Assembly: GCA_022826965.1 (NCBI GenBank)
Contig: JAJDTU010000001.1
Coordinates: forward strand, 310,001 to 374,000
DNA: 64,000 nucleotides
Direction: 5' to 3'
Origin: Dehalococcoidia bacterium
Lineage (GTDB): Bacteria; Chloroflexota; Dehalococcoidia; Bin125
Shown here: in pieces, positions 47,038 to 60,856 of the stretch
Layout of the letters: every line of letters starts with the position of its first letter
Position numbering within the stretch: the first letter of the stretch is position 1
Made by a program: the position numbers and the translations under genes
Notes under the pieces: model-generated
The model's input: only the letters and a program-made list of their open reading frames with translations
What the model was told of the DNA's origin: nothing
Database searches by the model: none

Positions 47038-48654
47038 ATGGAACTGCTGTTCACCGGTGGACGAGTGCTGACGATCGATGCCATGGATCGGATCGCCTCC
47101 GGCGTCGCCGTGCGCGATGGACGGATCGTGGCGGTCGGCGACAGCGCTGAGGCTCGCAACGCGGTCGGCCCCGATGCAACTCACGTCGATCTGAGGGGGC
47201 GGTCGCTGGTTCCGGGGTTCTGCGATCCGCACAACCACTTCTCGATGACGACGTTTGAGCCGCGATCGGTCGACTGCCGCCGGCCGCCGCTGGCGAACAA
47301 GGCTGCGGTGCTCGACGCGCTCGCGGCGGCGGCTTCGGGCAGCCCGGAGGGTCAGTGGATCTGGGGACTCGGGTTCTCGCAGACCGAACCCGGCGTTGTG
47401 AGCGACGACGTGCTGTTCCGGCACGAGCTGGACGAGGTCGCGCCGCACAATCCGGTCTGCGTGATGGATTCGTCGTATCACGCCTGCTACGCGAACTCGG
47501 CGGCGCTGGCTCTGGTGGGCATTGATCGCGACACGCCCGATCCGCGGGGTGGGAACATTCTTCATGACGACAGCGGGGAGCCGAACGGCGTGCTCTGGGA
47601 GCGTGCGATGGACCCGGTTCATCATGCGACGATGCGCTCGTACATCGACACGTTCGGGCCCGACGTGGTGGCGGGACTAGTGGAACAGAACTCGTTGCGT
47701 CACCTTTCGCACGGGATCACGAGCGTGGGAGATGCGCTGGTGATGCCCGAGAGCGCGGAGATCTATCGGCTGACGGACGAGCGCGGCCAGTTGCCGATCG
47801 CCATTCACCAGATGCGCGGCGGTCCCGGATTCTTCGCGGCACCGGAGGACGCCGCTGGCGGCGCGTACATGGAAGACGACGTCTCGGACCGTCTACGCGG
47901 CGGGATTGTCAAGATCTTCATGGATCCGGTCTGGCCCTCTCCGGCGATGGAGCTCTGCCATCCCGACGGTACGACCGAGCCCGTGGGCGAGCCCTACTAC
48001 GGGCAGGAAGAGGTCGATCACCTCGTACTCGATGCGGCGTCGCGCGGACTGCAGGTGGCGATTCACTGTATTGGAAACCGGGCGGTCGAACAGGGGTTGA
48101 ACGCATTCGAGCGGGCGCTGCGAGAGACGCCGGGGGACGATCGCCGCTTCCGGATTGAACACTTCATGTTCGCGACGAATGAGCAGATCGAGCGTGCCCA
48201 GTCACTTGGCGTGATGATCTCGCATCAGCCACCGTTCCTGCATCTGATTGGCGACTACTTCGAGCAGATGACCGCACAGCCCGGGATTGACTCGGTCCCG
48301 ATGCCATATCGGTCCATGTTGGATGCCGGAGTCCACGTCGCATCGGGGTCCGATTTCCCCTGCGCGCCGGTGCCCCCGTTGCTCGGGCTGTATGGACTGA
48401 CAACGCGAACATCGCACGACGGCACGGTGATCGCGGCCGATCAGGCGATCTCAGCGCTCGATGCGCTGCGCACCTACACGTTGAACTCGGCCGCAGCGAT
48501 GTTCCGTGAGCACGAAGTGGGATCGATCGAGGTCGGCAAGCACGCGGATATGGTCGTGCTGAGCCACGATCCGACGCTGGTCGACTCGACTTACATCCGG
48601 GAGATCGTTGTGCAGCAGACCTACGTCGATGGGGAACTGCTGTATTCGGTGTAG
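47038..48654 (+). CDS. YtcJ-type amidohydrolase, paralog A
   Basis: A 538-residue amidohydrolase (TIM barrel plus small beta domain). Start MELLFTGGRVLTIDAMDRIASG, metal site HNH (65-67) in FCDPHNHFSM, then AIHCIGNRAVEQ, FRIEHFMFATNEQIERA and SGSDFPCAP (Asp metal ligand). ATG follows AGGAGGA, a strong site. Closely resembles the gene at 50982 (long identical blocks such as DPHNHFSMTTFEPRSVDCR). Substrate unknown; YtcJ-like enzymes act on aryl or cyclic amides. Confidence 0.88.
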   Translation: MELLFTGGRVLTIDAMDRIASGVAVRDGRIVAVGDSAEARNAVGPDATHVDLRGRSLVPGFCDPHNHFSMTTFEPRSVDCRRPPLANKAAVLDALAAAASGSPEGQWIWGLGFSQTEPGVVSDDVLFRHELDEVAPHNPVCVMDSSYHACYANSAALALVGIDRDTPDPRGGNILHDDSGEPNGVLWERAMDPVHHATMRSYIDTFGPDVVAGLVEQNSLRHLSHGITSVGDALVMPESAEIYRLTDERGQLPIAIHQMRGGPGFFAAPEDAAGGAYMEDDVSDRLRGGIVKIFMDPVWPSPAMELCHPDGTTEPVGEPYYGQEEVDHLVLDAASRGLQVAIHCIGNRAVEQGLNAFERALRETPGDDRRFRIEHFMFATNEQIERAQSLGVMISHQPPFLHLIGDYFEQMTAQPGIDSVPMPYRSMLDAGVHVASGSDFPCAPVPPLLGLYGLTTRTSHDGTVIAADQAISALDALRTYTLNSAAAMFREHEVGSIEVGKHADMVVLSHDPTLVDSTYIREIVVQQTYVDGELLYSV

Positions 48655-48726
48655 TCGCCAGGGACCTGCCGATCAGAGCGCAGTCTGCGCGTGTTGCGAG
48701 GCTGCCGTCTGGTGACTGGGCCCGTC

Positions 48727-49020
48727 TCAGGTGTTGTAGCCCTCGAGCACGAGCACCTTCGAACGGAGGGCTCGCTGGCGGAGCTCCTGAAGCGCTGTGT
48801 AGTCGCTTGAGCGAACGAACTCGCGGGCGCCGTCGTCGTTGTCGAAGGCCATGACCACGATCCGTTGCGGGGTCCAATCGCCCTCAATGACGTCAATATT
48901 GCCGCCGCGCACCAGGAAAGTGCCTCCGTTGGAGGTGACGGCATCGTAGATCTTGGCTGCGAACTCGGAGAACGCCTCCTCGTCCAATACTTCGGTGTCA
49001 ATGACGACGTAACTGCTCAT
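48727..49020 (-). CDS. DUF1330 family protein
   Basis: A 97-residue protein with the DUF1330 ferredoxin-like pattern: VVIDTEVLDEEAFSEFAAKI, FLVRGGNIDVIEGDWTPQRIVVMAFDNDDGAREF and DYTALQELRQRAL. Usually small dimeric enzymes or stress proteins of unclear function. ATG 49020, separate from the following permease gene. Confidence 0.75.
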   Translation of the reverse strand: MSSYVVIDTEVLDEEAFSEFAAKIYDAVTSNGGTFLVRGGNIDVIEGDWTPQRIVVMAFDNDDGAREFVRSSDYTALQELRQRALRSKVLVLEGYNT

Positions 49021-49095
49021 TGTCGCGAGCCCTCTCTCTTTGCATTCGTGAGTCTACTGCGCGGTCTATCGACACATGTATCGAAAGCGTGTCGA

Positions 49096-50838
49096 TCAGC
49101 CCCGCGAGCCCTCGATTTCGACGGTGACAATGTCGATACCGTAGTACTTGCGGTGTCGCACAGACGAGGCGTAGAAACGCAACAGGCGGAACGAGATATC
49201 GCCCACATCCGGCTCCTCGGCCTGCTCGCTCAGATAGGCGACTCGGTCCTCAAGGTTCTCCTCGGAGAACAGCGCCAGGAACTCCAGCTCGACCGAGCCG
49301 ATGCCGGGTCGCGCGATCAGCACCAGTCGGGGCGGCTCGTCCGATTCGTAGTCGTCGCGCAGATTCAGCATGGCGGAGAGGGTTTCCTCGCCGGCCGCGT
49401 GCAGTCGGTCGATTGATTCCGTGTCCCAACGCAAATCGGCGCCGAGCTTGCGCAGGAACGCCTCGATGTCGGGCAAGGCTGAGACGTCCAGTTCGGTCTC
49501 CAATCGCCGAGGCCGAGGACGGGAACCAGCCAGCTCGAGAACGATGGTCAGCAGGACCGCAGCGGAGACGCCGAAGACCACGCCGTTGCCGAGGGTGGCT
49601 CCCCAGGTTCCGCCGATCACGTCGGCCAGGATGTTCTGGCTCTGCAGGCCGACCGCGATCGCGAGCGAGGTCCCGACAATCGCGGCTCGCTGCCGGTTTA
49701 GCCCTTCGCGCATGACCGCGCGCATGCCTTCGACAAAGAGCAGACCCATGATGACCATCAAGAGGGCCCCGCTGACCGGTCGCGGAATCGTGAGCAGCAA
49801 GGCAACGACCTTGGGCAGCAGCGCCGCCACGACCAGGAGCGCGCCCATGGTGACACCGACACGGCGAGCGGCGACACCAGTGAACTCGATGAGCGAAATC
49901 GTGGTGGGCAGATAGGCGATCGTTGGCGGCGTGCCTGCAAGCCCGGAGAGGAAGATGGCGATTCCACCGACGTTCAGCGTTCGCTGCACGCCGCGGAAGT
50001 CGATGCTGCGCTGTTCCCGTCTGGAGGCTTGTTGAATCGCCGCTCCCTCGCTGCTGGAACGGACCGCGACCACAGCGCTGACCACGAGGAAGACGAGCAG
50101 CAGCGCCCAGAAGTCTTGATCCAGGACCGAGCCGAACCCGGGCCAGCCCGAGACGCTCGGGAGATCGAACCAGGGCGCGTCGAGCACTCGCTGGATGTCG
50201 TACACACCGAGCGGTATTGCGATGACGCAGCCCGCAACGAGCGAGATCGGCAGGGCCCAGAGGCTCCAAAGGCCGGTCCCGAGCAACCTCAGCAACGCCG
50301 TGATGGTCAGCGTCGCCAGTCCGACTACGGGGCCGGCAGCGTCGCCAACGCCGGCGGGAACGTCATCCAGACGGCCAAGCGCGATCGGCATCGCGGAGAG
50401 GGCGATCATCATGAAGGCGACGCCGGAGACGACCGGAGTGATCAGTCTGCGTAGCTGGGCGAGTCGAGCGGCCACCACGAACTGAATCAGCGAGGACGCG
50501 ATTACCAGGCTCGACATTAGTGCGAGGCCGCCTTGCTCGACGGCCAGGACGCAGGCCGCCAGAAACGGCACGCCCGATCCCATCAGCAGGATGTGTCCCG
50601 GTCCCAGGCGGCCGATCCTTGATGCGTGCAGCCCGGTGGAGATTCCGGCAATTAGCAGTGCGCCGACGATGGCCCAGGTCATGTAGCTGCCGTCGTCGTT
50701 GAAGGCCGCCGAGAAGATGACCACGAATGTGACCACGTTGGAGACGATCAGGACCATGCCCTGGAATGCGACGTTGAGCGTCAGGAGCGGCGGGACCGGC
50801 TCTTCGGGTTCGTAACGAATATGGTCGTTGGTCGCCAT
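49096..50838 (-). CDS. NCS2-like purine/xanthine permease with C-terminal kinase-like domain
   Basis: A 580-residue protein. The first 430 or so residues form about 12-13 helices and look like the nucleobase:cation symporter-2 fold, with features such as RLGPGHILLMGSGVPFLAACV, ITPVVSGVAFMMIALSAMPIALG and GLAGTPPTIAYLPTTISLIEFTGVAARRVGV. From about residue 440 comes a soluble domain with ALPDIEAFLRKLGADLRWDTESIDRLHAAGEETLSAML, reminiscent of an RsbW-type HATPase but lacking an obvious G-box set. ATG 50838 is chosen over an upstream in-frame ATG (50877) because the family N-terminus follows it. Flanked by two amidohydrolase paralogs. Confidence 0.75.
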   Translation of the reverse strand: MATNDHIRYEPEEPVPPLLTLNVAFQGMVLIVSNVVTFVVIFSAAFNDDGSYMTWAIVGALLIAGISTGLHASRIGRLGPGHILLMGSGVPFLAACVLAVEQGGLALMSSLVIASSLIQFVVAARLAQLRRLITPVVSGVAFMMIALSAMPIALGRLDDVPAGVGDAAGPVVGLATLTITALLRLLGTGLWSLWALPISLVAGCVIAIPLGVYDIQRVLDAPWFDLPSVSGWPGFGSVLDQDFWALLLVFLVVSAVVAVRSSSEGAAIQQASRREQRSIDFRGVQRTLNVGGIAIFLSGLAGTPPTIAYLPTTISLIEFTGVAARRVGVTMGALLVVAALLPKVVALLLTIPRPVSGALLMVIMGLLFVEGMRAVMREGLNRQRAAIVGTSLAIAVGLQSQNILADVIGGTWGATLGNGVVFGVSAAVLLTIVLELAGSRPRPRRLETELDVSALPDIEAFLRKLGADLRWDTESIDRLHAAGEETLSAMLNLRDDYESDEPPRLVLIARPGIGSVELEFLALFSEENLEDRVAYLSEQAEEPDVGDISFRLLRFYASSVRHRKYYGIDIVTVEIEGSRG

Positions 50839-50981
50839 CCTGCTCCGCTTGGTTCGTGCAGCGTCTGCGCCCGCCACAGGCTACGGCTTTGCACGGCGGG
50901 ATGACCGGCGCGCTTGCCGCCGTCTCCGGGCGAGTCGTTAGTCTCTGACCGATTGAGCATGCAGGCGGGGAGGGAACCGAG

Positions 50982-52589
50982 ATGGAACTGCTATTCACCG
51001 GCGGACGCGTGTTGACGATGGATGGGCTGGACCGGATCGCGTCGGGGGTTGCGGTGCGGGACGGCAAGATTGTTGCGGTCGGTCAGAGCGACGAGGCGCG
51101 GAGCGCGGTGTCTGCCGACGCCACGCATGTCGACCTGCGCGGCCGGGCGCTGATCCCCGGCTTCTGCGATCCGCACAATCACTTCTCGATGACGACATTC
51201 GAGCCTCGCTCGGTTGATTGCCGGGTACCTCCGCTGTCGGGCAAGCCGGCGGTCCTGGATGCGCTCGCGGCGGCCGCGGATGCGGCTCCGGCAGGGCAGT
51301 GGATCTGGGGATTGGGGTATGGGGCGCGGCATGCGAACGGCGGCTGGCTGACGCGGGCGGAGCTGGACGACGTGGCGCCCGAAAACCCTGTGTGCGTGAT
51401 GGACTTCTCCTATCACGCCAGCTACGCGAACTCCGAGGCAATGGCGATCGCGGGGATCAACTTCGAGACTCCCGATCCGCGCGGCGGTCAGATCCTGCGC
51501 GACGAGAGCGGCGAAGCGACAGGGATGCTCTATGAGCGGGCGTCGGACCTGGTGCACCACGCGTCGATGCGCGCGCATATCGACACTCTGGGTCCAGAGA
51601 TCGTGGCGGATCTCGTTGAGCAGAATGCGCTGCGCCACCTCTCGCACGGTGTGACCAGTGTTGGGGATGCGGTCGTGATGCCGGAGAGCGCCGAGATGTA
51701 TCGGCTCGCCGACGAACGCGGCAAGCTTCCGATCATGATCCACCAGATGCGCGGGGGCAACGGCTTCTTCGCCGCGCCCGAGGCGGCCGCGAACGGCGCG
51801 TTTCTCCAGGACGATGTCTCGGACCGGCTGCGGGGCCGGATCGTCAAGCTGTTCATGGATCCGGTCTATCCATCGAATGCGCTGCGCAAGTGCCACGCCG
51901 ACGGCACGTTCGAGGACGTCGGCGAGCCGTACTACAACCAGGACGAGGTCGACCAACTCGTGCTCAATGCGGCCTCGCACGGGCTGCAGACGGCAATTCA
52001 CTGCCTCGGCAACCGCGCGATCGAGCAGGCGTTGAACACGTACGAGCGAGTGCAGCGCGAGATTCCGCGCGGCGACGCTCGGTACCGGATTGAGCACTTC
52101 TTCTTCGCCGATCCCGGTCAGATGGAGCGGGCCGCCTCGCTGGGGGTGATCATCTCGCACCAGCCGGCGTTCCTGTACTCGGTCGGGCAGGGGTTCGTCG
52201 ATTTCATCGCCGAGGCCGGCCTGACGATCCCGCCGCTTCCCTACCGCTCGTTCCTCGATGCGGGAGTGACGGTCGCATCCGGATCCGACTTCCCCTGTGC
52301 GCCGGTCGAGCCGCTGATTGGGCTGTATGGTCTGACCGCGCGCCGCTCGCGGGAGGGCGACCTGATCGCGGAGGAGGAGACGCTCTCAGCGCTCGAAGCG
52401 TTGCGTACGCAGACGATCAACTCGGCGGTCGCGATGTTCCGCGACGACGAGGTGGGATCGATCGAGGTGGGTAAGCGGGCGGACCTGGTCGTGCTGAGTC
52501 ACGATCCGACGCTGGTCGATCCTGAGGCGATCCGCGACATCGTGGTGCAGCGGACGTATGTGGATGGGGAGCTGTTGTACTCGGTGTAA
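50982..52589 (+). CDS. YtcJ-type amidohydrolase, paralog B
   Basis: A 535-residue amidohydrolase, clearly paralogous to the gene at 47038, with the same HNH metal motif (FCDPHNHFSM), AIHCLGNRAIEQA, YRIEHFFFADPGQMERA and SGSDFPCAP. Both end with VDGELLYSV. Differences cluster in loops such as GLGYGARHANGGWLTRAEL, suggesting different substrates. ATG 50982 has AGGGA upstream. Divergent from the permease gene, sharing the intergenic promoter region. Confidence 0.88.
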   Translation: MELLFTGGRVLTMDGLDRIASGVAVRDGKIVAVGQSDEARSAVSADATHVDLRGRALIPGFCDPHNHFSMTTFEPRSVDCRVPPLSGKPAVLDALAAAADAAPAGQWIWGLGYGARHANGGWLTRAELDDVAPENPVCVMDFSYHASYANSEAMAIAGINFETPDPRGGQILRDESGEATGMLYERASDLVHHASMRAHIDTLGPEIVADLVEQNALRHLSHGVTSVGDAVVMPESAEMYRLADERGKLPIMIHQMRGGNGFFAAPEAAANGAFLQDDVSDRLRGRIVKLFMDPVYPSNALRKCHADGTFEDVGEPYYNQDEVDQLVLNAASHGLQTAIHCLGNRAIEQALNTYERVQREIPRGDARYRIEHFFFADPGQMERAASLGVIISHQPAFLYSVGQGFVDFIAEAGLTIPPLPYRSFLDAGVTVASGSDFPCAPVEPLIGLYGLTARRSREGDLIAEEETLSALEALRTQTINSAVAMFRDDEVGSIEVGKRADLVVLSHDPTLVDPEAIRDIVVQRTYVDGELLYSV

Positions 52590-52618
52590 AGTGGCCACCC
52601 AGAGTTGACGGTTTGCGC

Positions 52619-53182
52619 ATGTTCCTGCGTTTGGTGGTGGTCGGAGTTCTCGTTGTCGGTTCGTTGGCTACGTTCCCGGCTCAGACAAGCGCCTGTAGCT
52701 GTGGGGGACCACCTTCGCCGGCTGACGAGTTCAACTGGGCGGGATCGGTCTTTCGCGGCATAGCAACATCGATTGATGATGGTGACCTAAATCGAGAAAT
52801 TCGAGTCAAGTTTGCCGTCTTGTCCGTCTGGAAGGGTGAGATCGCCGAGGAACTCACGGTCATCACCGGCCATGGCGGTGGAGATTGCGGCTATCGCTTT
52901 CACGAAGGAGTCGAGTACATCGTGTATGCCGACAGAGAGACGAATGGCGTCGGGATCTGCGGCCGAACGGCTCCAGTGGCGCTGGCGGGCGTGGACCTGA
53001 AGGAACTCGGACCCGGCACGGATATCGATTACGGCGGCAATCCGCCAACTCCTTATGACCCAGCGGATCGAACGCCGCTGGGGGAGAAGACCTGGATTAT
53101 TCCGATTGTTGCCACACTGCTAGCTAGCTTCGTCGGGCTCATATGGGTAGTGATGAATCGGCTGGGTCCAAGACTGGGCTGA
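52619..53182 (+). CDS. Secreted TIMP/netrin-like protein with C-terminal helix, copy 1
   Basis: A 187-residue protein. Signal peptide (about 1-27) ends before CSCGGPPSPADEF; an N-terminal Cys-x-Cys right after cleavage is the TIMP/NTR pattern. An OB-like beta region (VFRGIATSID, VKFAVLSVWKGEIAEELTVITG) with paired Cys (DCGYRF, GICGRT) follows, then a membrane helix (IIPIVATLLASFVGLIWVV) near the end. ATG 52619 (a TTG lies 6 bp upstream). Similar to the gene at 53825, but without an LPxTG. Confidence 0.7.
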   Translation: MFLRLVVVGVLVVGSLATFPAQTSACSCGGPPSPADEFNWAGSVFRGIATSIDDGDLNREIRVKFAVLSVWKGEIAEELTVITGHGGGDCGYRFHEGVEYIVYADRETNGVGICGRTAPVALAGVDLKELGPGTDIDYGGNPPTPYDPADRTPLGEKTWIIPIVATLLASFVGLIWVVMNRLGPRLG

Positions 53183-53665: not shown

Positions 53666-53824
53666 CGCTGCTTTCCTTCAGAGTGTGTTGATCGAGTCCT
53701 CCTGGATTGTCGCCGATCGTGAAATCTGCCGCATCGGCCGTGACAGCCGCTCCAGGAAACGTCGTGTCGCCATACAGTGACCGCGTTGGCGCGGGAGGGT
53801 CTGGCGGTCGTTGAGGGCTGCGCC

Positions 53825-54418
53825 ATGGGCTTGCGTGTGTTGCTGGTCGTGTCGATGATCGGTCTCTGGTTTGTCGTGTCTCCAACGAGTGGCTACGCGT
53901 GTTCGTGTGCGCCTCCGGGAACGCCAGCGGAGGCGCTGGCGGAGTCGGAGTTGGTCTTCCGGGGGACGGTGACGTCGATTCTGCCGGCGGACGAAGCAGG
54001 CTTGCTGGCGGTGGACTTCGACATCGAGACGGTCTGGAAGGGTCCGGACGCGGAAACTTTCTCGTTGACCACGCAGCAGGACACGGCGGCCTGCGGTTAT
54101 CCATTCGAGGAGCGGGTCGAGTACGTGGTCTACTCCTGGAACGGTGTCGATGTGGCGCGCTGCGGACGGACCGCGCCGGTCGAGTTCGCCGGCGAGGATC
54201 TGACCGCCTTCGCGGGCAGCGTGCAGACCGGAGGCGGCGTCGGCCTGCCGAACACCGGCAGCGGCGGTCTCGTTGAGGCTGAAGCGGGGGAAGACCGGCT
54301 GGCGGCAATCGCCGTGGTGGCGGTGGTGGACGCGATGCTGCTGGGGTTCGTTGGAGCGCGGATGTACGTTCGTCGACAGGACGCAAGGCAGCGGGAGACT
54401 AGGGTTGATGGCACCTGA
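53825..54418 (+). CDS. Secreted TIMP/netrin-like protein with LPxTG sorting signal, copy 2
   Basis: A 197-residue protein starting at ATG 53825 (MGLRVLLVVSMIGLWFV signal). Cleavage leaves CSCAPPGTPAEAL. The domain shares VFRGTVTSI, VDFDIETVWKGPDAETFSLTTQQ and CGYPFEERVEYVVYSW with the gene at 52619, showing paralogy. Near the C-terminus LPNTG is followed by a hydrophobic helix (AAIAVVAVVDAMLLGFVGA) and a basic tail (RRQDARQR), a complete sortase-type sorting signal. No sortase gene is in the window. Confidence 0.75.
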   Translation: MGLRVLLVVSMIGLWFVVSPTSGYACSCAPPGTPAEALAESELVFRGTVTSILPADEAGLLAVDFDIETVWKGPDAETFSLTTQQDTAACGYPFEERVEYVVYSWNGVDVARCGRTAPVEFAGEDLTAFAGSVQTGGGVGLPNTGSGGLVEAEAGEDRLAAIAVVAVVDAMLLGFVGARMYVRRQDARQRETRVDGT

Positions 54419-55568: not shown

Positions 55569-55710
55569 TGGAGAGTGTGTTTCGTCAGAGACGGGGTATT
55601 GCGGTGGGTTGAGGGACGGTGAGGGCGACGTCGTTGCTGATGAATTGCGATCACCATATCGCCCTCCGCTAGGCTCGGAGCAGTTGAGACTCGGTACGAA
55701 GGGAGCGGGT

Positions 55711-56928
55711 GTGAGCACTGAACAGGCGACCGCGACGCCGTTGCTCAAGGGGCTGAAGATCGTGGAGATGGCGACTTGGCTGTTTGGGCCGATGAGCGCT
55801 TGCGTCTTGAGCGAGATGGGCGCCGAAGTGGTCAAGGTCGAGCCGCACGAGGGCGACCCGATGCGGGGGCTGATTCATCGGTTGCATGACGGGGTCGACT
55901 GGGTCTTCGAGATTCCCAATCGGAACAAGCGTAGCGTGGCGCTCAATGTGCGAACGCCGGACGGCATCGAGGCTCTGCGGCGACTGCTGGCCGACGCGGA
56001 TGTATTCATCGTCAACCTGCGCCGCGGCGCGCTCGAACGGTTGGGTATCGACTATGCGTCGATCAAGGCAGAGCACCCACGCCTGATCTACGCGCACGCC
56101 ACCGGCTACGGCACCGAGGGTCCAGATATCGATCGTCCGGCCTTCGACGAACTGGCTTACTGGGCGCGCGGGGGCTTCATGGAGACGCTGGGTCCCGCGG
56201 ACAGCGAGCCGATCCGGCTGGTCGGGGCGATGGGGGACCTGCCCAGCGCGATGAACCTGTCGGCGGCGATCTTTGCCGCGCTGTATCAGCGCGAGCTGAC
56301 CGGCGAAGGGCAATTCGTCACCTGCTCGCTCTACGGGGGCGGGATCTGGGCGAACGGCTTCGCGATCCAGGGCGCGCTGGCGACCGGCCAGAACTTCCCC
56401 CGCAGCGACCGTTACAGCGCCTTCAATCCGCTCTACAACTCGTACCGCTCGTCGGACGGGAAGTGGATGCAGCTGGCGATGATCCAGGAGGAGCGATTCT
56501 GGGGACCGTTCGCGGAGGCGATTGGCGAGCCGATCCTGACCGAGGATCCGCGCTTTGCCGAGGCCTCGGTGCGTCGTAAGCACATCCGCGAGGCGGTCGA
56601 AGTGATCGAGCAGCGAATCGGCGAGGAACCCAGGGACCATTGGGCGGCGATCTTCGACGCCAGGGATTTCCCCTGGGCGCCGGCTGCGGACTCGGTCGAG
56701 ATTGCCAACGATCCGCAGGCGGCGGCCAACGGTTACGTGCGCACGATGCAGCATCGAACGGCGGGGGAGTTCAAGATCTTCGGCCTGCCGTTTGAACTCG
56801 AACGGGCGCCGACGGAGACGCGCAGCAGCGCTCCGGAACTGGGCGAGCACACCGAGGTTGTGCTGGAAGAGTTGGGCTATAGCTGGGACGAGATTGCGGG
56901 GATGAAGCAGTCGGGTGTGATTCCATAG
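55711..56928 (+). CDS. CaiB/BaiF family III CoA-transferase
   Basis: A 405-residue CoA-transferase from GTG 55711 (GGGAG 6-7 bp upstream): LLKGLKIVEMATWLFGPMSACVLSEMGAEVVKVEPHEGD, RNKRSVALNVRTPDGIEALRRLLADADVFIVNLRRGALERLGIDY, GYGTEGPDIDRPAFDELAYWARGG with the likely catalytic Asp. Acts in CoA activation of carboxylic acids. Stands next to an amidohydrolase-2 gene, possibly one pathway. Repeat sequence lies between the two. Confidence 0.9.
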   Translation: MSTEQATATPLLKGLKIVEMATWLFGPMSACVLSEMGAEVVKVEPHEGDPMRGLIHRLHDGVDWVFEIPNRNKRSVALNVRTPDGIEALRRLLADADVFIVNLRRGALERLGIDYASIKAEHPRLIYAHATGYGTEGPDIDRPAFDELAYWARGGFMETLGPADSEPIRLVGAMGDLPSAMNLSAAIFAALYQRELTGEGQFVTCSLYGGGIWANGFAIQGALATGQNFPRSDRYSAFNPLYNSYRSSDGKWMQLAMIQEERFWGPFAEAIGEPILTEDPRFAEASVRRKHIREAVEVIEQRIGEEPRDHWAAIFDARDFPWAPAADSVEIANDPQAAANGYVRTMQHRTAGEFKIFGLPFELERAPTETRSSAPELGEHTEVVLEELGYSWDEIAGMKQSGVIP

Positions 56929-56937
56929 CCGCGAGAA

Positions 56938-57010
56938 TGGTCGGGCCCCTCACCCCGGCCCTCTCCCTCAGCGAGAGTGGGTGGGAGGACTGGTTCGCAA
57001 CCAGTTCCCT
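56938..57010. repeat. Repeat fragment and hairpin between CoA-transferase and amidohydrolase
   Basis: CCCCTCACCCCGGCCCTCTCCC is a fragment of the dispersed palindromic repeat, followed by hairpin ACTGGTT-CGC-AACCAGT (56989-57005). May influence the downstream gene's transcript. Confidence 0.55.
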
Positions 57011-57039
57011 CTCGATGGACAACGAAGGAAGGTGTCCCG

Positions 57040-57927
57040 ATGCCTGAGATCATTGATTTCCGAGTCACCCTGCCTCCGCGCGAGTACGCCGATCCGTCCG
57101 GCGACGGCGACGAGCGCTTCAGTGACCGCAGTTACCTGTCGAACTACAACCGGATCTACACGCGAGAACGTGGAGGCGGCGCTGACGCACAGGCGATGGT
57201 TGCCGCGATTGCAGAGGCCGGCATCGACCGTGCCGTGCTGCAGGCCGAGTGGGGCGCGGGGGACTATCGGGCGATGAACGACGCCGTGCATCGGATTGTG
57301 GCCGGCTATCCCGACGTGCTGACCGGCTACGTCACGGTGAATCCGGCAGCGGGCGACAACATGGCCGCGGTCGTTGAGGCCGAGGTGCGGGAACGTGGCG
57401 CGAAGGGCGTCAACCTACAGCCGTTTTCGTACCAGGTGTTGGCCAACGACAAGCGGTTCTACCCGCTTTACTCGAAGTGCCAGGAGCTCGGCGTTCCCGT
57501 GACGATTCACTCATCGATCAACTTCTCCAACGACCGCTCGATCGCGTACGGTCGTCCGCTCGCTCTTGACGAGATCGCGTGCGACTTTCCCGACCTCACC
57601 ATCGTGGCCAATCATGGCGGCTGGCCGTGGGTCAACGAGCTGGTCGCGGTCGCCTGGAAGCACCGCAACGTCTACATCGAGATCGGAGCGGTCGCGCCGA
57701 AGTACATCGGCACGCCGGGCACCGGCTGGGAGACGCTGATGCACTACGGCAACACGTCGCTGCTGAGCGATCGGGTGCTGTTCGCGACCGACAACATGAT
57801 TCCCTACCAGCGGGCGGTGTCGGAGCTGCAGGAGTTGCCGCTCAAGGACCATGTCAAGGAAGCCTGGCTGGGGGAGAATGCGGCGCGGTTGTTGGCTCAG
57901 GTGGAGGAGCGTCTGTCGGGTGTCTGA
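57040..57927 (+). CDS. Amidohydrolase-2 family protein lacking the first HxH
   Basis: A 295-residue TIM-barrel protein of the amidohydrolase-2/decarboxylase-like group. The first motif, normally DxHxH, reads IIDFRVTLP, so both N-terminal metal-binding His are missing. Later features are retained: VTIHSSIN, LTIVANHGGWPW, VLFATDNMIPY. ATG 57040 has AAGGAAGG upstream. Either it uses another metal arrangement or acts without that metal; function unknown. Confidence 0.78.
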   Translation: MPEIIDFRVTLPPREYADPSGDGDERFSDRSYLSNYNRIYTRERGGGADAQAMVAAIAEAGIDRAVLQAEWGAGDYRAMNDAVHRIVAGYPDVLTGYVTVNPAAGDNMAAVVEAEVRERGAKGVNLQPFSYQVLANDKRFYPLYSKCQELGVPVTIHSSINFSNDRSIAYGRPLALDEIACDFPDLTIVANHGGWPWVNELVAVAWKHRNVYIEIGAVAPKYIGTPGTGWETLMHYGNTSLLSDRVLFATDNMIPYQRAVSELQELPLKDHVKEAWLGENAARLLAQVEERLSGV

Positions 57928-57982
57928 CTTGGCCACGCCGACGAGCGCTGTTGGTTACCGTTGTCGGCAGGCGGTGATCGCG

Positions 57983-58462
57983 ATGGTTTTCGAGCGGCGG
58001 TGGAGCGTGCGGTTGATTCTCGTGTCTGCTCTGGCCATCTGCATCGCCCTGTTGTCGGCGGCGTGTGGTGGTCAGGGCGAGGAGGACTACCAAGCGTCGC
58101 AGCAGCATGAGGAGCACGACCCGGCGCCGTCCTCGGTCATCGAGGGCGCGCATTCAGCGGCCGGACTGGCGGGCAAGCGGCTGTTTGCGGCCAACTGTTC
58201 ACAGTGCCATGGCGAAAATGCGTCGGGTACGAACCAGGGTCCACCGCTCGTGCATCAGATCTACGAGCCGGGGCATCATGGCAACGCCAGTTTCGTGATC
58301 GCGGTCGCCCGCGGGGTCCGGGCGCATCACTGGGATTTCGGCAACATGCCGGCCGTGGCGGGCCTGGAGATCGACGAGATTCACCAGGTGATCTGCTATG
58401 TGCGCGAACTGCAACTCGCGAACGAGATCATCGACGAAATCCCGTCATCGACTCCGTGTTAG
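57983..58462 (+). CDS. Cytochrome c lipoprotein
   Basis: A 159-residue protein. A signal with lipobox SAAC (about residue 28) leads to an acidic, His-rich stretch (QQHEEHDPAPSS) and a single c-type haem domain with CSQCH (haem attachment), distal Met in NMPAVAG. ATG 57983; a GTG at 57974 is also possible. Likely a small electron carrier on the outer face of the cytoplasmic membrane. It follows the amidohydrolase gene after 55 bp. Confidence 0.85.
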   Translation: MVFERRWSVRLILVSALAICIALLSAACGGQGEEDYQASQQHEEHDPAPSSVIEGAHSAAGLAGKRLFAANCSQCHGENASGTNQGPPLVHQIYEPGHHGNASFVIAVARGVRAHHWDFGNMPAVAGLEIDEIHQVICYVRELQLANEIIDEIPSSTPC

Positions 58463-58469
58463 CGGGTTC

Positions 58470-59669
58470 TTAGCCGACCACCCCGGACTCGCGTAGCTGG
58501 GCAATCGCTTCCGGGGCACAGCCGATCTCCTGCAAGAGCGCGTGGGTGTCCTGGCCGAGTTCGGGGCCGAGGGATTTGACCTGGCCCTGGACTCCGTTGG
58601 CGCGGATTGGGGAGCCGACGGTTGTCAGCGTGCCGAAGCGGGAGTCCTCGTACCGGATGATGTACTCGTTGGCGGCGGCTTGCTCGTCCTCGGCGATCAT
58701 CGGGTAGTCCTGGATGAGAGTGCTGGGCACTTCTTCCGTGTCGAACCGAGGCGGCCAATCGGCGGCCGGTCGGGCGGCGATGGTCGTTGCTACCTCGCCT
58801 CTGAGTTCTTCGCGGTTGGCGTTGCGGTCGGCGAGGGTGCTGAATCGTGGGTCAGTGACCAGGTCTTCGCGCTCGAGCGCGCGGCACATGGGAACCCAGC
58901 GGTCGGTGATGTAACCGAGGAATAGCCAGTCGCCGTCCGAGCCCCGGGCCTGGAGCGTGAACATGTTGGAGATGGGCATGTTCTTGGCTGAGGGGACGAT
59001 GTTGCCGTTGGCGATCGCGTTGATGGCGGGCGCGCGACCCCAGATCTGGCTGCCGTAGAGCGAAGTCTGGACGAGCTGTCCCTCGCCAGTGCGCTCGCGC
59101 GCGACCAGCGCGCTGGAGATCGCGAAGGCGAAGATCATGCCGCCGGTCTGGTCGGGATCGGGCGCAGCGACGTTCGCAAAGGGCTGCGTGCCGTTCTCGC
59201 CGCGGACGCCGTTGGGCCACATGCCGCCGCCGGCCGCGCCGGCGACTGAAGCCCATGAGGTTGCATTCGCACGGGGTCCCTTCGGTCCGAATCCGCTCGC
59301 GCTCGCATAGACGAGCCTCGGGTTGCGCTGCTTGAGGTCGTCCCAGCCGAGGCCGAGTCGATTCATCACGCCAGGCTTGAAGTTTTCGGTGACGACGTCG
59401 ACGCGCTTGACCAGTTCGTAGACGATGTCGCGTCCCTCAGCGGAGCGCAGGTCGACGGCGATGCTGCGCTTGCCTCGGTGGTGGGTGTGGAAGTACTGAG
59501 AGAAGCCGTCCTTGCGCCTTCCGACGTGGCGTGACGGGTCGCCGACATTGAGGCGCTCTACCTTGATGACCTCGGCGCCGAGGTCGGACAGGAGCACCGT
59601 CGCCGAGGGGCCCTGCTGGAACTGGGTGAAGTCGAGCACGCGAATGCCGTCGAGGAGTGGGCGGGTCAT
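58470..59669 (-). CDS. CaiB/BaiF family III CoA-transferase
   Basis: A 399-residue CoA-transferase: LLDGIRVLDFTQFQQGPSATVLLSDLGAEVIKVER, HHRGKRSIAVDLRSAEGRDIVYELVKRVDVVTENFKPGVMNRLGLG and ASGFGPKGPRANATSWASVAGAAGGG. The usual Asp-containing patch reads NATSWASVAG, without an obvious Asp, so catalytic competence should be checked. Convergent with the cytochrome gene; divergent from the enolase-superfamily gene. Confidence 0.88.
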   Translation of the reverse strand: MTRPLLDGIRVLDFTQFQQGPSATVLLSDLGAEVIKVERLNVGDPSRHVGRRKDGFSQYFHTHHRGKRSIAVDLRSAEGRDIVYELVKRVDVVTENFKPGVMNRLGLGWDDLKQRNPRLVYASASGFGPKGPRANATSWASVAGAAGGGMWPNGVRGENGTQPFANVAAPDPDQTGGMIFAFAISSALVARERTGEGQLVQTSLYGSQIWGRAPAINAIANGNIVPSAKNMPISNMFTLQARGSDGDWLFLGYITDRWVPMCRALEREDLVTDPRFSTLADRNANREELRGEVATTIAARPAADWPPRFDTEEVPSTLIQDYPMIAEDEQAAANEYIIRYEDSRFGTLTTVGSPIRANGVQGQVKSLGPELGQDTHALLQEIGCAPEAIAQLRESGVVG

Positions 59670-59749
59670 AGCTCTTGCCTCCGGATCAAGGATCAGATAG
59701 TGCGAATATACGCGCCGCTAGTCTCTCTTGACGTGGAGAGGTCAACGCT

Positions 59750-60856
59750 ATGCAAATCACCGACATCACCTGCACGCCGCTGACAATCGGCAAGAGCCTG
59801 CTGCGGATTGTCACCAACGCCGGACTTGAAGGCTGGGCCGAGGTTCCGGGCGGGAACTACAACCTGAGCTCGAAGGCGGCGGTGTTCCAGGCGTATCTGG
59901 AGACTGACATCAAAGGGGAACTTCTAGGCGAGGATCCGCTGCTGATCGACCGGCACTGGGAGACCCTGGCCCTGGGCCGCGGCGAGCGGATGTACAAGTT
60001 GCCCGGGTGGGTCGTCGGCGTCGTCGATGTGGCGCTGTGGGATCTGATGGGCAAGGAGACCGGACTGCCGGTGCATACGTTGATGGGCGGGGCACGGCGC
60101 ACCGATATCCCGCTGTACTGGAGCACTGGATCGGGTTGGCGGATGCAGCCGGAGGAGATGCTCGAGTTGGTCCAGCAGGGCAAGGAGAAGGGCTACCGGT
60201 CGTTCAAGATTCGTATGGACTGGCGCGGCTGGCGGCAGGATATCGACCCGGAGAAGGACTTCCAGATCCTCAAGCTGGTGCGTGAGTACCTGGACGAGGG
60301 ACAGTACCTGGGATTCGACGCCAACAACGGGTATTCGGTCTCGACGGCGATCCAGCAGGGTCGTCGGTTCGAAGAGCTTGGCATCGACCATTTCGAGGAG
60401 CCGATTCCGCACTATGACTTGCCCGGCCTAAAGCAGATCGCAGATGCGCTGGATGTGGCGGTTTCGGCCGGTGAACAGGATGCGTTTCGCTGGTGGTTCG
60501 AGCACCTGATCCTGCTCGGCGACATCGATATCCTGCAGCCCGACATCCTCAACGCCGGCGGTCCGAGCGAGGTTAAGCGCATCTTCGAGATGGCGACAGT
60601 GTTGAACAAGCCGGTGATGCCGCACAGCCCGCAGGCGGGGATCAACTCGATGGCGTCACTGCACGTCTACGCGACCGTGCAGAATGCAACCCGGCCGCAC
60701 GAATACTCGGAGGAATTCTCAGGCCCGATCGACGACGTCGCCGAGCTGTACGGGGAGTCGGTGATACCGAAGGACGGGTGCATCGTGCTGAGCGACAAGC
60801 CGGGTTACGGGATCGAGTTGAATGAGGCTGCGGTGGAGCGATTGACGGAGCGTTAG
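59750..60856 (+). CDS. Mandelate racemase/muconate lactonizing enzyme family protein
   Basis: A 368-residue enolase-superfamily protein. Capping domain about 1-120; barrel with SFKIRMDWRG (catalytic-strand Lys), FDANNGY and FEEPIPHYD (metal ligands), VSAGEQDAFRW (third metal ligand) and MPHSPQAG (His). Sugar-acid dehydratase or racemase activity is typical. Stop overlaps the convergent vapC gene by 4 bp. Confidence 0.88.
   Translation: MQITDITCTPLTIGKSLLRIVTNAGLEGWAEVPGGNYNLSSKAAVFQAYLETDIKGELLGEDPLLIDRHWETLALGRGERMYKLPGWVVGVVDVALWDLMGKETGLPVHTLMGGARRTDIPLYWSTGSGWRMQPEEMLELVQQGKEKGYRSFKIRMDWRGWRQDIDPEKDFQILKLVREYLDEGQYLGFDANNGYSVSTAIQQGRRFEELGIDHFEEPIPHYDLPGLKQIADALDVAVSAGEQDAFRWWFEHLILLGDIDILQPDILNAGGPSEVKRIFEMATVLNKPVMPHSPQAGINSMASLHVYATVQNATRPHEYSEEFSGPIDDVAELYGESVIPKDGCIVLSDKPGYGIELNEAAVERLTER

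Follow-up and report, generated by a model that had tools for sequence, protein, structure and literature searches.

Nucleobase-binding transporters of the NCS2/NAT family carry a motif of the Q/E-N-x-G type in transmembrane segment 10 (TM10) at the substrate. In UapA, a well-studied member beside UraA and PbuX, xanthine is held among other contacts by Glu356 (TM8, through a hydrogen bond) and Gln408 (TM10), according to the available part of the UapA paper (PMC4837479). The SLC26/SulP transporters have a related membrane fold and bear a C-terminal cytoplasmic domain, STAS, from the sigma-factor partner-switching family, which raises the question of why a fold of sigma-factor regulation should sit on a membrane transporter. 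Here we analysed a locus in a 64,000-nucleotide stretch of a Dehalococcoidia bacterium genome (contig JAJDTU010000001.1 of GCA_022826965.1, positions 310,001 to 374,000; hereafter the window), in which an NCS2-family permease with a predicted anti-sigma-like tail lies between two paralogous YtcJ-like amidohydrolases, A and B. The window lies on contig C14 of a genome of 3.0 Mb and 97% completeness. We tentatively favour, without firm confidence, a reading in which an old pair of amidases stands beside a transporter of organic anions whose tail would serve for regulation or dimerisation. The features of the locus, in window coordinates, are as follows.

47038..48654, + strand: gene A, Amidohydro_3 (YtcJ-like) amidohydrolase, 538 aa (Pfam PF07969)
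48727..49020, − strand: DUF1330 (PF07045) small protein, 97 aa (reading frame; Pfam, 84.7 versus 23 bits)
49096..50838, − strand: 580-aa permease of the NCS2 family that ends in an anti-sigma-like domain (Pfam PF00860; AlphaFold model from 73 sequences, pLDDT 77.6); start at the ATG 50836-50838, with an alternative upstream GTG at 50877 that would add 13 aa
49528..50838, − strand: transmembrane domain of NCS2/UapA-UraA fold, permease residues 1-437 (structure model and comparison)
50059..50061, − strand: codon of permease Arg260, aligned to UapA Glu356 (profile alignment to UapA)
49099..49527, − strand: permease tail, residues 438-580, a GHKL fold of RsbW/SpoIIAB/UsfX type in which the nucleotide motifs are degenerate (predicted model)
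50982..52589, + strand: gene B, YtcJ-like Amidohydro_3 amidohydrolase, 535 aa, paralog of A (Pfam, alignment, tree)

Permease core and substrate site

The protein between A and B is an NCS2-family permease. It scored 125.6 bits against the Xan_ur_permease family (PF00860; cut-off 27), and its model matched UapA (Z 41.5, 2.6 Å over 423 residues) and UraA (Z 40.7), so it shares with UapA, UraA and PbuX both the Pfam family and the 7+7 fold (Z about 41). The similarity to SLC26Dg was lower (Z 29.6). A sequence-only reading of this DNA had proposed an NCS2-like permease of nucleobase type enclosed by the two amidohydrolases; the family assignment holds, whereas a nucleobase substrate is not supported. 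The window permease has Arg260 at the position of UapA Glu356, and the UapA TM10 stretch QNNG, which includes Gln408, aligns to TTIS, so that neither the TM8 Glu nor the TM10 Q/E-N-x-G motif was found. The protein also falls under the NCBIfam cut-offs for pbuX (176.8 versus 414) and ncs2 (133.4 versus 291.8).

We collected relatives by keeping the best 80 of at least 466 candidate stretches, which gave 79 loci. The alignment of 73 permeases includes 72 of them; L088 was left out for a stop or unclear base, and L077, L078, L079, L080, L083 and L124 were omitted by choice as near-duplicates. At the column of UapA Glu356, these 73 proteins have Lys in 41, Glu in 25, Arg in 5 and Met in 2. In a tree of 78 proteins (a quick tree with SH-aLRT support only and no bootstrap), the 30 Glu-type proteins form one side of a single branch (SH-aLRT 100). 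One switch thus explains the loss of Glu at TM8, with Arg and Met nested among Lys, and Glu is likely to be the older state because UapA itself has Glu. The exchange of the substrate carboxylate for a basic TM8 residue suggests that the cargo is anionic. Because this carboxylate is replaced by Arg, and by Lys in most relatives, the protein would most likely carry a small organic anion and not a nucleobase. As a single change on the tree, the switch from Glu to Lys or Arg leads us to expect a class of substrates new to the NCS2 fold.

The predicted anti-sigma-like tail

The window permease differs from UapA, UraA and PbuX not only by the Arg/Lys at TM8 and the loss of QNNG in its branch, but also by an added C-terminal domain, which is absent from the sequence-only account. 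We modelled this tail alone, using 68 of the 73 alignment rows (pLDDT 81.1). The first 21 Foldseek ranks were all UsfX, SpoIIAB, RsbW or the RsbU-RsbW protein Rv1364c (E from 1.5e-7 for UsfX to 4.1e-4). These four also made up the ten best VIA comparisons (Z 14.0-16.7), led by RsbW 6m37_C (Z 16.7, rmsd 1.9 Å over 112 residues) and followed by UsfX (16.2), with SpoIIAB at 14.4-14.7. The anti-sigma entries were followed by SiaB (11.8), LvrC (11.6) and histidine kinases (7.5 or less); since VIA compares only chains that Foldseek ranked high, the absence of other folds here is uninformative. The tail is therefore predicted to have an RsbW/SpoIIAB/UsfX-type GHKL fold over its whole length. Paralogs agree with this assignment: the HATPase_c_2 family (PF13581, gathering score 27.4) was matched by the more distant paralogs L059 (39.4 bits) and L060 (45.2 bits) and by another permease, of the Glu type, on contig C2 of the window genome (37.2 bits). 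Of six relatives scanned for this family, L059 and L060 passed the gathering score, a third matched weakly (E 0.0056) and the remaining three did not match.

The nucleotide motifs of the GHKL fold are the N-box Asn and DxGxG. In the 73 tails, DxGxG was never found, and an Asn four residues after Glu485, at the N-box position, occurred in only two. Glu485 itself, which by our own placement lies in the N-box helix as in RsbW, SpoIIAB and UsfX, is present in all 73, and Asn528, Asp531, Ser549 and His562 are also invariant. Unlike these proteins, which belong to the HATPase_c_2 type, the tail is fused to a transporter, lacks DxGxG and has nearly lost the N-box Asn; it is probably not a working kinase. 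Because the usual nucleotide-binding motifs are absent, the tail would most likely be a protein-protein module, which could serve for dimerisation, for gating of the transporter through a partner, or for both, like STAS on SLC26.

The fusion occurs in several phyla. In all 79 loci (the best of the at least 466 candidates), the match covers the tail and ends no earlier than query residue 575. Their titles name Chloroflexota, Acidobacteria, Acidimicrobiia, Actinomycetes, Gemmatimonadota, Latescibacterota, Nitrospirales, Opitutales and Alphaproteobacteria, and the isolate names suggest that most of these organisms may be sponge-associated. The highest-identity named relatives come from metagenome-assembled genomes of Chloroflexota/Dehalococcoidia. 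Within the phylum, the tail domain was found in 29 of 301 genomes, with up to six copies each; 116 of the 123 matches lie in open frames of at least 500 aa. All 20 tail loci that we fetched, the window's included, have an NCS2 core upstream, although in L182 only from core residue 275. The window genome itself encodes three NCS2 proteins with this architecture.

SLC26 carries STAS, the SpoIIAA-like partner, whereas the window permease carries the SpoIIAB-like partner, on a core of NCS2/SLC23 type. The permease would belong to an undescribed NCS2-fold subfamily that forms a counterpart of SLC26-STAS. A search of open-licence papers for an NCS2/anti-sigma-type fusion found no description, although the Pfam architecture tables may list it. 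A sister transporter family bearing the other half of the regulatory pair (the SpoIIAB/RsbW fold) would provide an independent case for testing the STAS question. The interest of the system drops sharply if the permease carries ordinary purines and the tail merely holds a dimer.

A more far-reaching, rather unlikely, possibility is that the permease is a transceptor, in which transport alters the state of the tail so that it binds or lets go of a sigma factor or a free STAS protein and in this way directly sets gene expression. If true, this would be the reciprocal of SLC26-STAS, in expanded paralog sets across several bacterial phyla. Partner-switching-type proteins are present in the window genome, where we found four STAS matches above cut-off; two are in short frames, at C4:251224 (137 aa) and C12:129244 (115 aa), and a strongly matching HATPase_c_2 domain (82.4 bits) is encoded some 100 bp away from the latter. 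None of them is linked to the permease.

The paired amidohydrolases

A and B are 71% identical (384 of 538 columns, with three gap positions). They share a 23-residue identical block, PGFCDPHNHFSMTTFEPRSVDCR, and the gap and much of the divergence are concentrated around A residues 115-130, which bears out the earlier description of paralogs with long identical blocks and differing loops. Both match Amidohydro_3 (PF07969) over the whole protein (293.5 bits for A and 297 for B, gathering cut-off 29.7). We aligned 26 proteins (10 A, 13 B-type and 3 outgroup; the A fragments of genome G003 and the B fragment of G007 were left out). H65, H67, H148, K292, H343, H375 and D439 (A numbering) are identical in all 26. 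H65, H67, K292, H343, H375 and D439 are the predicted metal ligands of A, and H148 is a further conserved His. These roles were assigned by motif order from a paper on the metallo-BSH (bile salt hydrolase) of Bilophila, without direct alignment, and A's six predicted ligands match the metal ligands of that enzyme by order and motif. In the part of that paper available, the metallo-BSH is an Amidohydro_3/YtcJ-like enzyme that cleaves taurine-conjugated bile salts, with other N-acyl taurines as poorer substrates, and alanine mutants of its six metal ligands are inactive (PMC13081902). Epsilon-lysine acylase is another enzyme placed in the YtcJ-like group, as stated in the accessible part of its source (PMC10699109). 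From an alignment of B, the HxH, K, H, H and D positions coincide with those of PDB 3igh and 3icj. A and B thus have the fold family, the HxH/Lys/His/His/Asp site and the extra His of the YtcJ-like amidohydrolases (3icj, 3igh, the Bilophila metallo-BSH and the Streptomyces epsilon-lysine acylases), while the two nearest solved structures match at about 80-92 bits only. Unlike the known YtcJ-like enzymes, the A/B lineage has two paralogs per genome.

We then considered whether A and B open rings, as the sequence-only reading had supposed. Against the NCBIfam equivalog models, A scored 28.3 bits for dihydropyrimidinase (cut-off 393) and 27.9 for allantoinase (cut-off 358), and B scored 28.7 and 30.4, with the best stretch of each lying in the first 80 residues. 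Among the best 25 families for each protein, both also fell far under the cut-offs of the hydantoinase, allantoinase and guanine/adenine deaminase models. These scores led us to reject a cyclic-amidohydrolase identity. Because YtcJ-like enzymes with known activity, as far as the excerpts of the cited papers describe them, cut linear amides, and because the cyclic-model scores are so low, A and B would be linear-amide hydrolases. They are probably cytosolic, since no obvious signal peptide is seen in either sequence. In the reading that we favour, they would be dinuclear-metal cytosolic amidases that hydrolyse linear amides of the N-acyl type and differ in fine specificity.

An alternative is that the permease imports a heterocycle such as a purine, a pyrimidine or a hydantoin, whose ring A and B would open. 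The NCS2 membership and UapA/UraA fold of the permease agree with this, the superfamily of A and B includes hydantoinases, and the adjacency is retained in 7 of 14 other genus members. But the substrate-site Glu has become Arg, the TM10 motif is not kept, and A and B reach 28-30 bits where allantoinase and dihydropyrimidinase require 358-393. Moreover, A and/or B occur without an adjoining permease in 4 of the 14 genomes (G005, G008, G012 and G013), the permease of G002 occurs without A or B, and the genes lie on opposite strands. We consider such a heterocycle unit improbable.

The history of the pair also differs from what had been proposed, namely a duplication in place. In the tree, the A orthologs group in one clade and the B orthologs in another (support values 100/97 and 97/90), and the outgroup is separate from both. 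G017, a genome of another genus in the same family, has one A and one B on different contigs; the split therefore predates the branching of its genus, and the two genes are old ortholog groups rather than recent tandem copies. The paralogs also lie apart in G008, so that two relatives show the distant placement that the sequence-only reading had itself named as evidence against its proposal. Within a genome, A and B are 71.2-74.8% identical (nine genomes), which is close to the between-genome mean of 72.5%, and in 26 codon windows the within-genome pairs (nine genomes) and between-genome pairs differ by at most 0.04. Since within- and between-genome identities are alike and the codon windows agree, there is no sign of gene conversion; together with the two-clade tree, the codon windows led us to reject both gene conversion and recent tandem duplication. 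The duplication is old, and the idea that it happened in place is not supported. At 18 positions of the compared rows, A and B each have a fixed residue of their own, which is compatible with a difference in specificity.

Gene order in relatives and neighbouring genes

The permease gene is on the strand opposite to A and B. It is convergent with A and divergent from B, from which it is separated by 143 bp, and the DUF1330 gene follows it on the same strand, 75 bp downstream. Because of these strands, A, the permease and B are not one operon. The order A - permease - B is nevertheless kept in 7 of 14 other same-genus genomes (G001, G003, G004, G009, G010, G011 and G014; in G003, gene A is broken into two frames), and this recurrence indicates that the arrangement is not due to chance. 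The set claimed by the sequence-only reading is thus conserved in half of the genus members, but not as an operon. In the other genomes, no permease adjoins the B gene of G005 and G013 or the A gene and the two B-type genes of G008; the nearest permeases of these three genomes are 76-77% identical and lie on other contigs. In G012, A is present and no permease match was found, G007 lacks a close permease and bears a fragment of B at the end of a contig, and G002 and G006 showed neither A nor B at E 1e-100. In G004 (locus L030, 7847-12268), a tandem second NCS2-GHKL permease, 73% identical to that of the window, is located between A and the first copy and has a DUF1330 gene of its own.

These observations bear on another explanation, in which the permease and the amidohydrolases share a variable accessory region but no function, and their coupling is only historical. 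The gap between A and the permease varies, with a sterol methyltransferase gene and in some genomes a Rieske oxygenase gene, with the second NCS2-DUF1330 copy of G004, or with neither as in the window. The 6.9-kb contig of G002 (L079, 621-4874) carries a permease 89% identical to that of the window together with DUF1330, sterol methyltransferase and Rieske genes without A or B, which rules out that a close permease invariably lies between A and B and slightly raised our estimate of this explanation. The presence of A- or B-like genes at only 6 of the 79 permease loci also agrees with this explanation. Nevertheless, seven of the eight same-genus permeases with at least 85% identity are located between A and B. 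An unrelated neighbourhood is a real possibility, though we lean away from it.

Several results weigh against the reading that we favour, an amidase pair beside an anion transporter with a tail module. A basic TM8 residue is no proof of an anion, and the profile alignment of TM8 to UapA has about 20% identity. In the tail model, residues 102-108 of 143 are below pLDDT 50. The window tail had no match to PF13581 even at E 10, and sequence and profile searches of the PDB with the tail found no significant anti-sigma structure, the best being a paralog profile at E 0.038. Since the window copy's own sequence searches were negative, the assignment of the tail rests on the predicted fold and the paralogs. 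An A- or B-like gene was found at only 6 of the 79 permease loci, all of the same genus (tblastn, E 1e-10; up to 10 kb on each side). On the G002 contig, A is missing past the Rieske gene, and the place of B before the permease is taken by a gene for a small secreted-type protein. A joint pathway of the permease with A and B is weakly supported, because A and B occur at so few of these loci, the G002 permease lacks them, and the genes are not one operon.

The wider neighbourhood gave no common substrate. In a census of the genes around the NCS2 relatives, we scanned 107 of 146 selected frames (150-900 aa, called by a simple longest-open-reading-frame script and in some cases spurious), skipping 17 near-duplicate loci and listing 25 of 109 families. 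Among the families listed, no common substrate emerged; Abhydrolase_6 (7), ACPS (5) and Peptidase_S15 (4) were commonest, and Creatininase, Hydantoinase_B and Amidase appeared once or twice each. A DUF1330 gene like that of the window adjoins the permease in 25 of the 79 loci (21 downstream and 4 upstream), compared with the 6 loci that have an A- or B-like gene. As a side observation, phosphopantetheinyl transferases of ACPS type are thus among the commonest permease neighbours (5 of 107), and open frames of about 2500-3000 codons (simple open-reading-frame calls) lie within four genes of the NCS2-GHKL permeases at L104, L106, L117, L118, L123, L124, L134 and L139.

The sterol methyltransferase and Rieske genes could point to a different substrate. 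A sterol methyltransferase gene occurs in the gap between A and DUF1330, or at the locus, in G001, G002, G003, G004, G009, G011 and G014, and beside B in G013, thus in 8 of the 14 genomes; the match in G004 contains a stop. Two that we scanned scored 80.0-81.6 bits against PF08498 (cut-off 21.7). Five of these loci (G001, G002, G009, G011 and G014) also have a Rieske oxygenase, and further Rieske genes adjoin A in G014, separate the two B-type genes of G008 and are found two genes away from B in G005. Five Rieske proteins (one from G001, two from G014, and one each from G008 and G005) are above the cut-off for PF19298, the C-terminal family of KshA (3-ketosteroid 9alpha-hydroxylase). In two Chloroflexota loci, L077 (12011-14301) and L082 (11818-13977), sterol methyltransferase and KshA-type Rieske genes were seen inside the gap between A and the permease.

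It could be explained that A and B, together with these enzymes, act on steroid-like amide conjugates, and that the permease moves the released or conjugated anion. The sterol methyltransferase in eight genus members, a Rieske gene in seven (G001, G002, G009, G011, G014, G005 and G008), either at the locus or no more than two genes from B, the PF08498 and PF19298 matches in the members scanned, and the existence of a YtcJ-like enzyme that cleaves taurine-conjugated bile salts, as the available portion of its report describes (PMC13081902), are consistent with this. However, the window locus has neither gene, and a search of the window genome with the Rieske protein of L077 found nothing at E 1e-20; two Sterol_MT_C genes above cut-off stand elsewhere in it (C10:20789-20983 and C2:581948-582121), 40-43% identical to the locus type. 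In G002, the permease and the sterol-type genes occur together without the amidases. Of the four sulfonate contacts proposed for the metallo-BSH in the portion of the paper available, placed here by offset from the ligands and not by alignment, Ser would be kept, Gln381 would be replaced by Pro and Asn443 by Ile or Leu, and the His was not located. We regard the steroid-amide explanation as quite unlikely. Bacterial sterol methyltransferases of sponge symbionts have already been published (PMC10070321); a word search of the main text of that paper, as far as it was available, found none of 'Chloroflex', 'Dehalococcoidia' and 'SAR202'.

Downstream of B, two small proteins are encoded on the + strand at 52613-53182 and 53777-54418. 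Each has an N-terminal hydrophobic stretch and a CSCxxP motif (both noted by eye) and neither has a Pfam match; similar genes stand near B in several relatives. Farther downstream, at 55630-60856, there are two CoA-transferase-family genes, which score below the formyl-CoA-transferase cut-offs, an enolase-superfamily gene and, labelled by eye, one amidohydrolase-like and one cytochrome c-like gene. The order of the genes in this segment is kept in several members of the genus.

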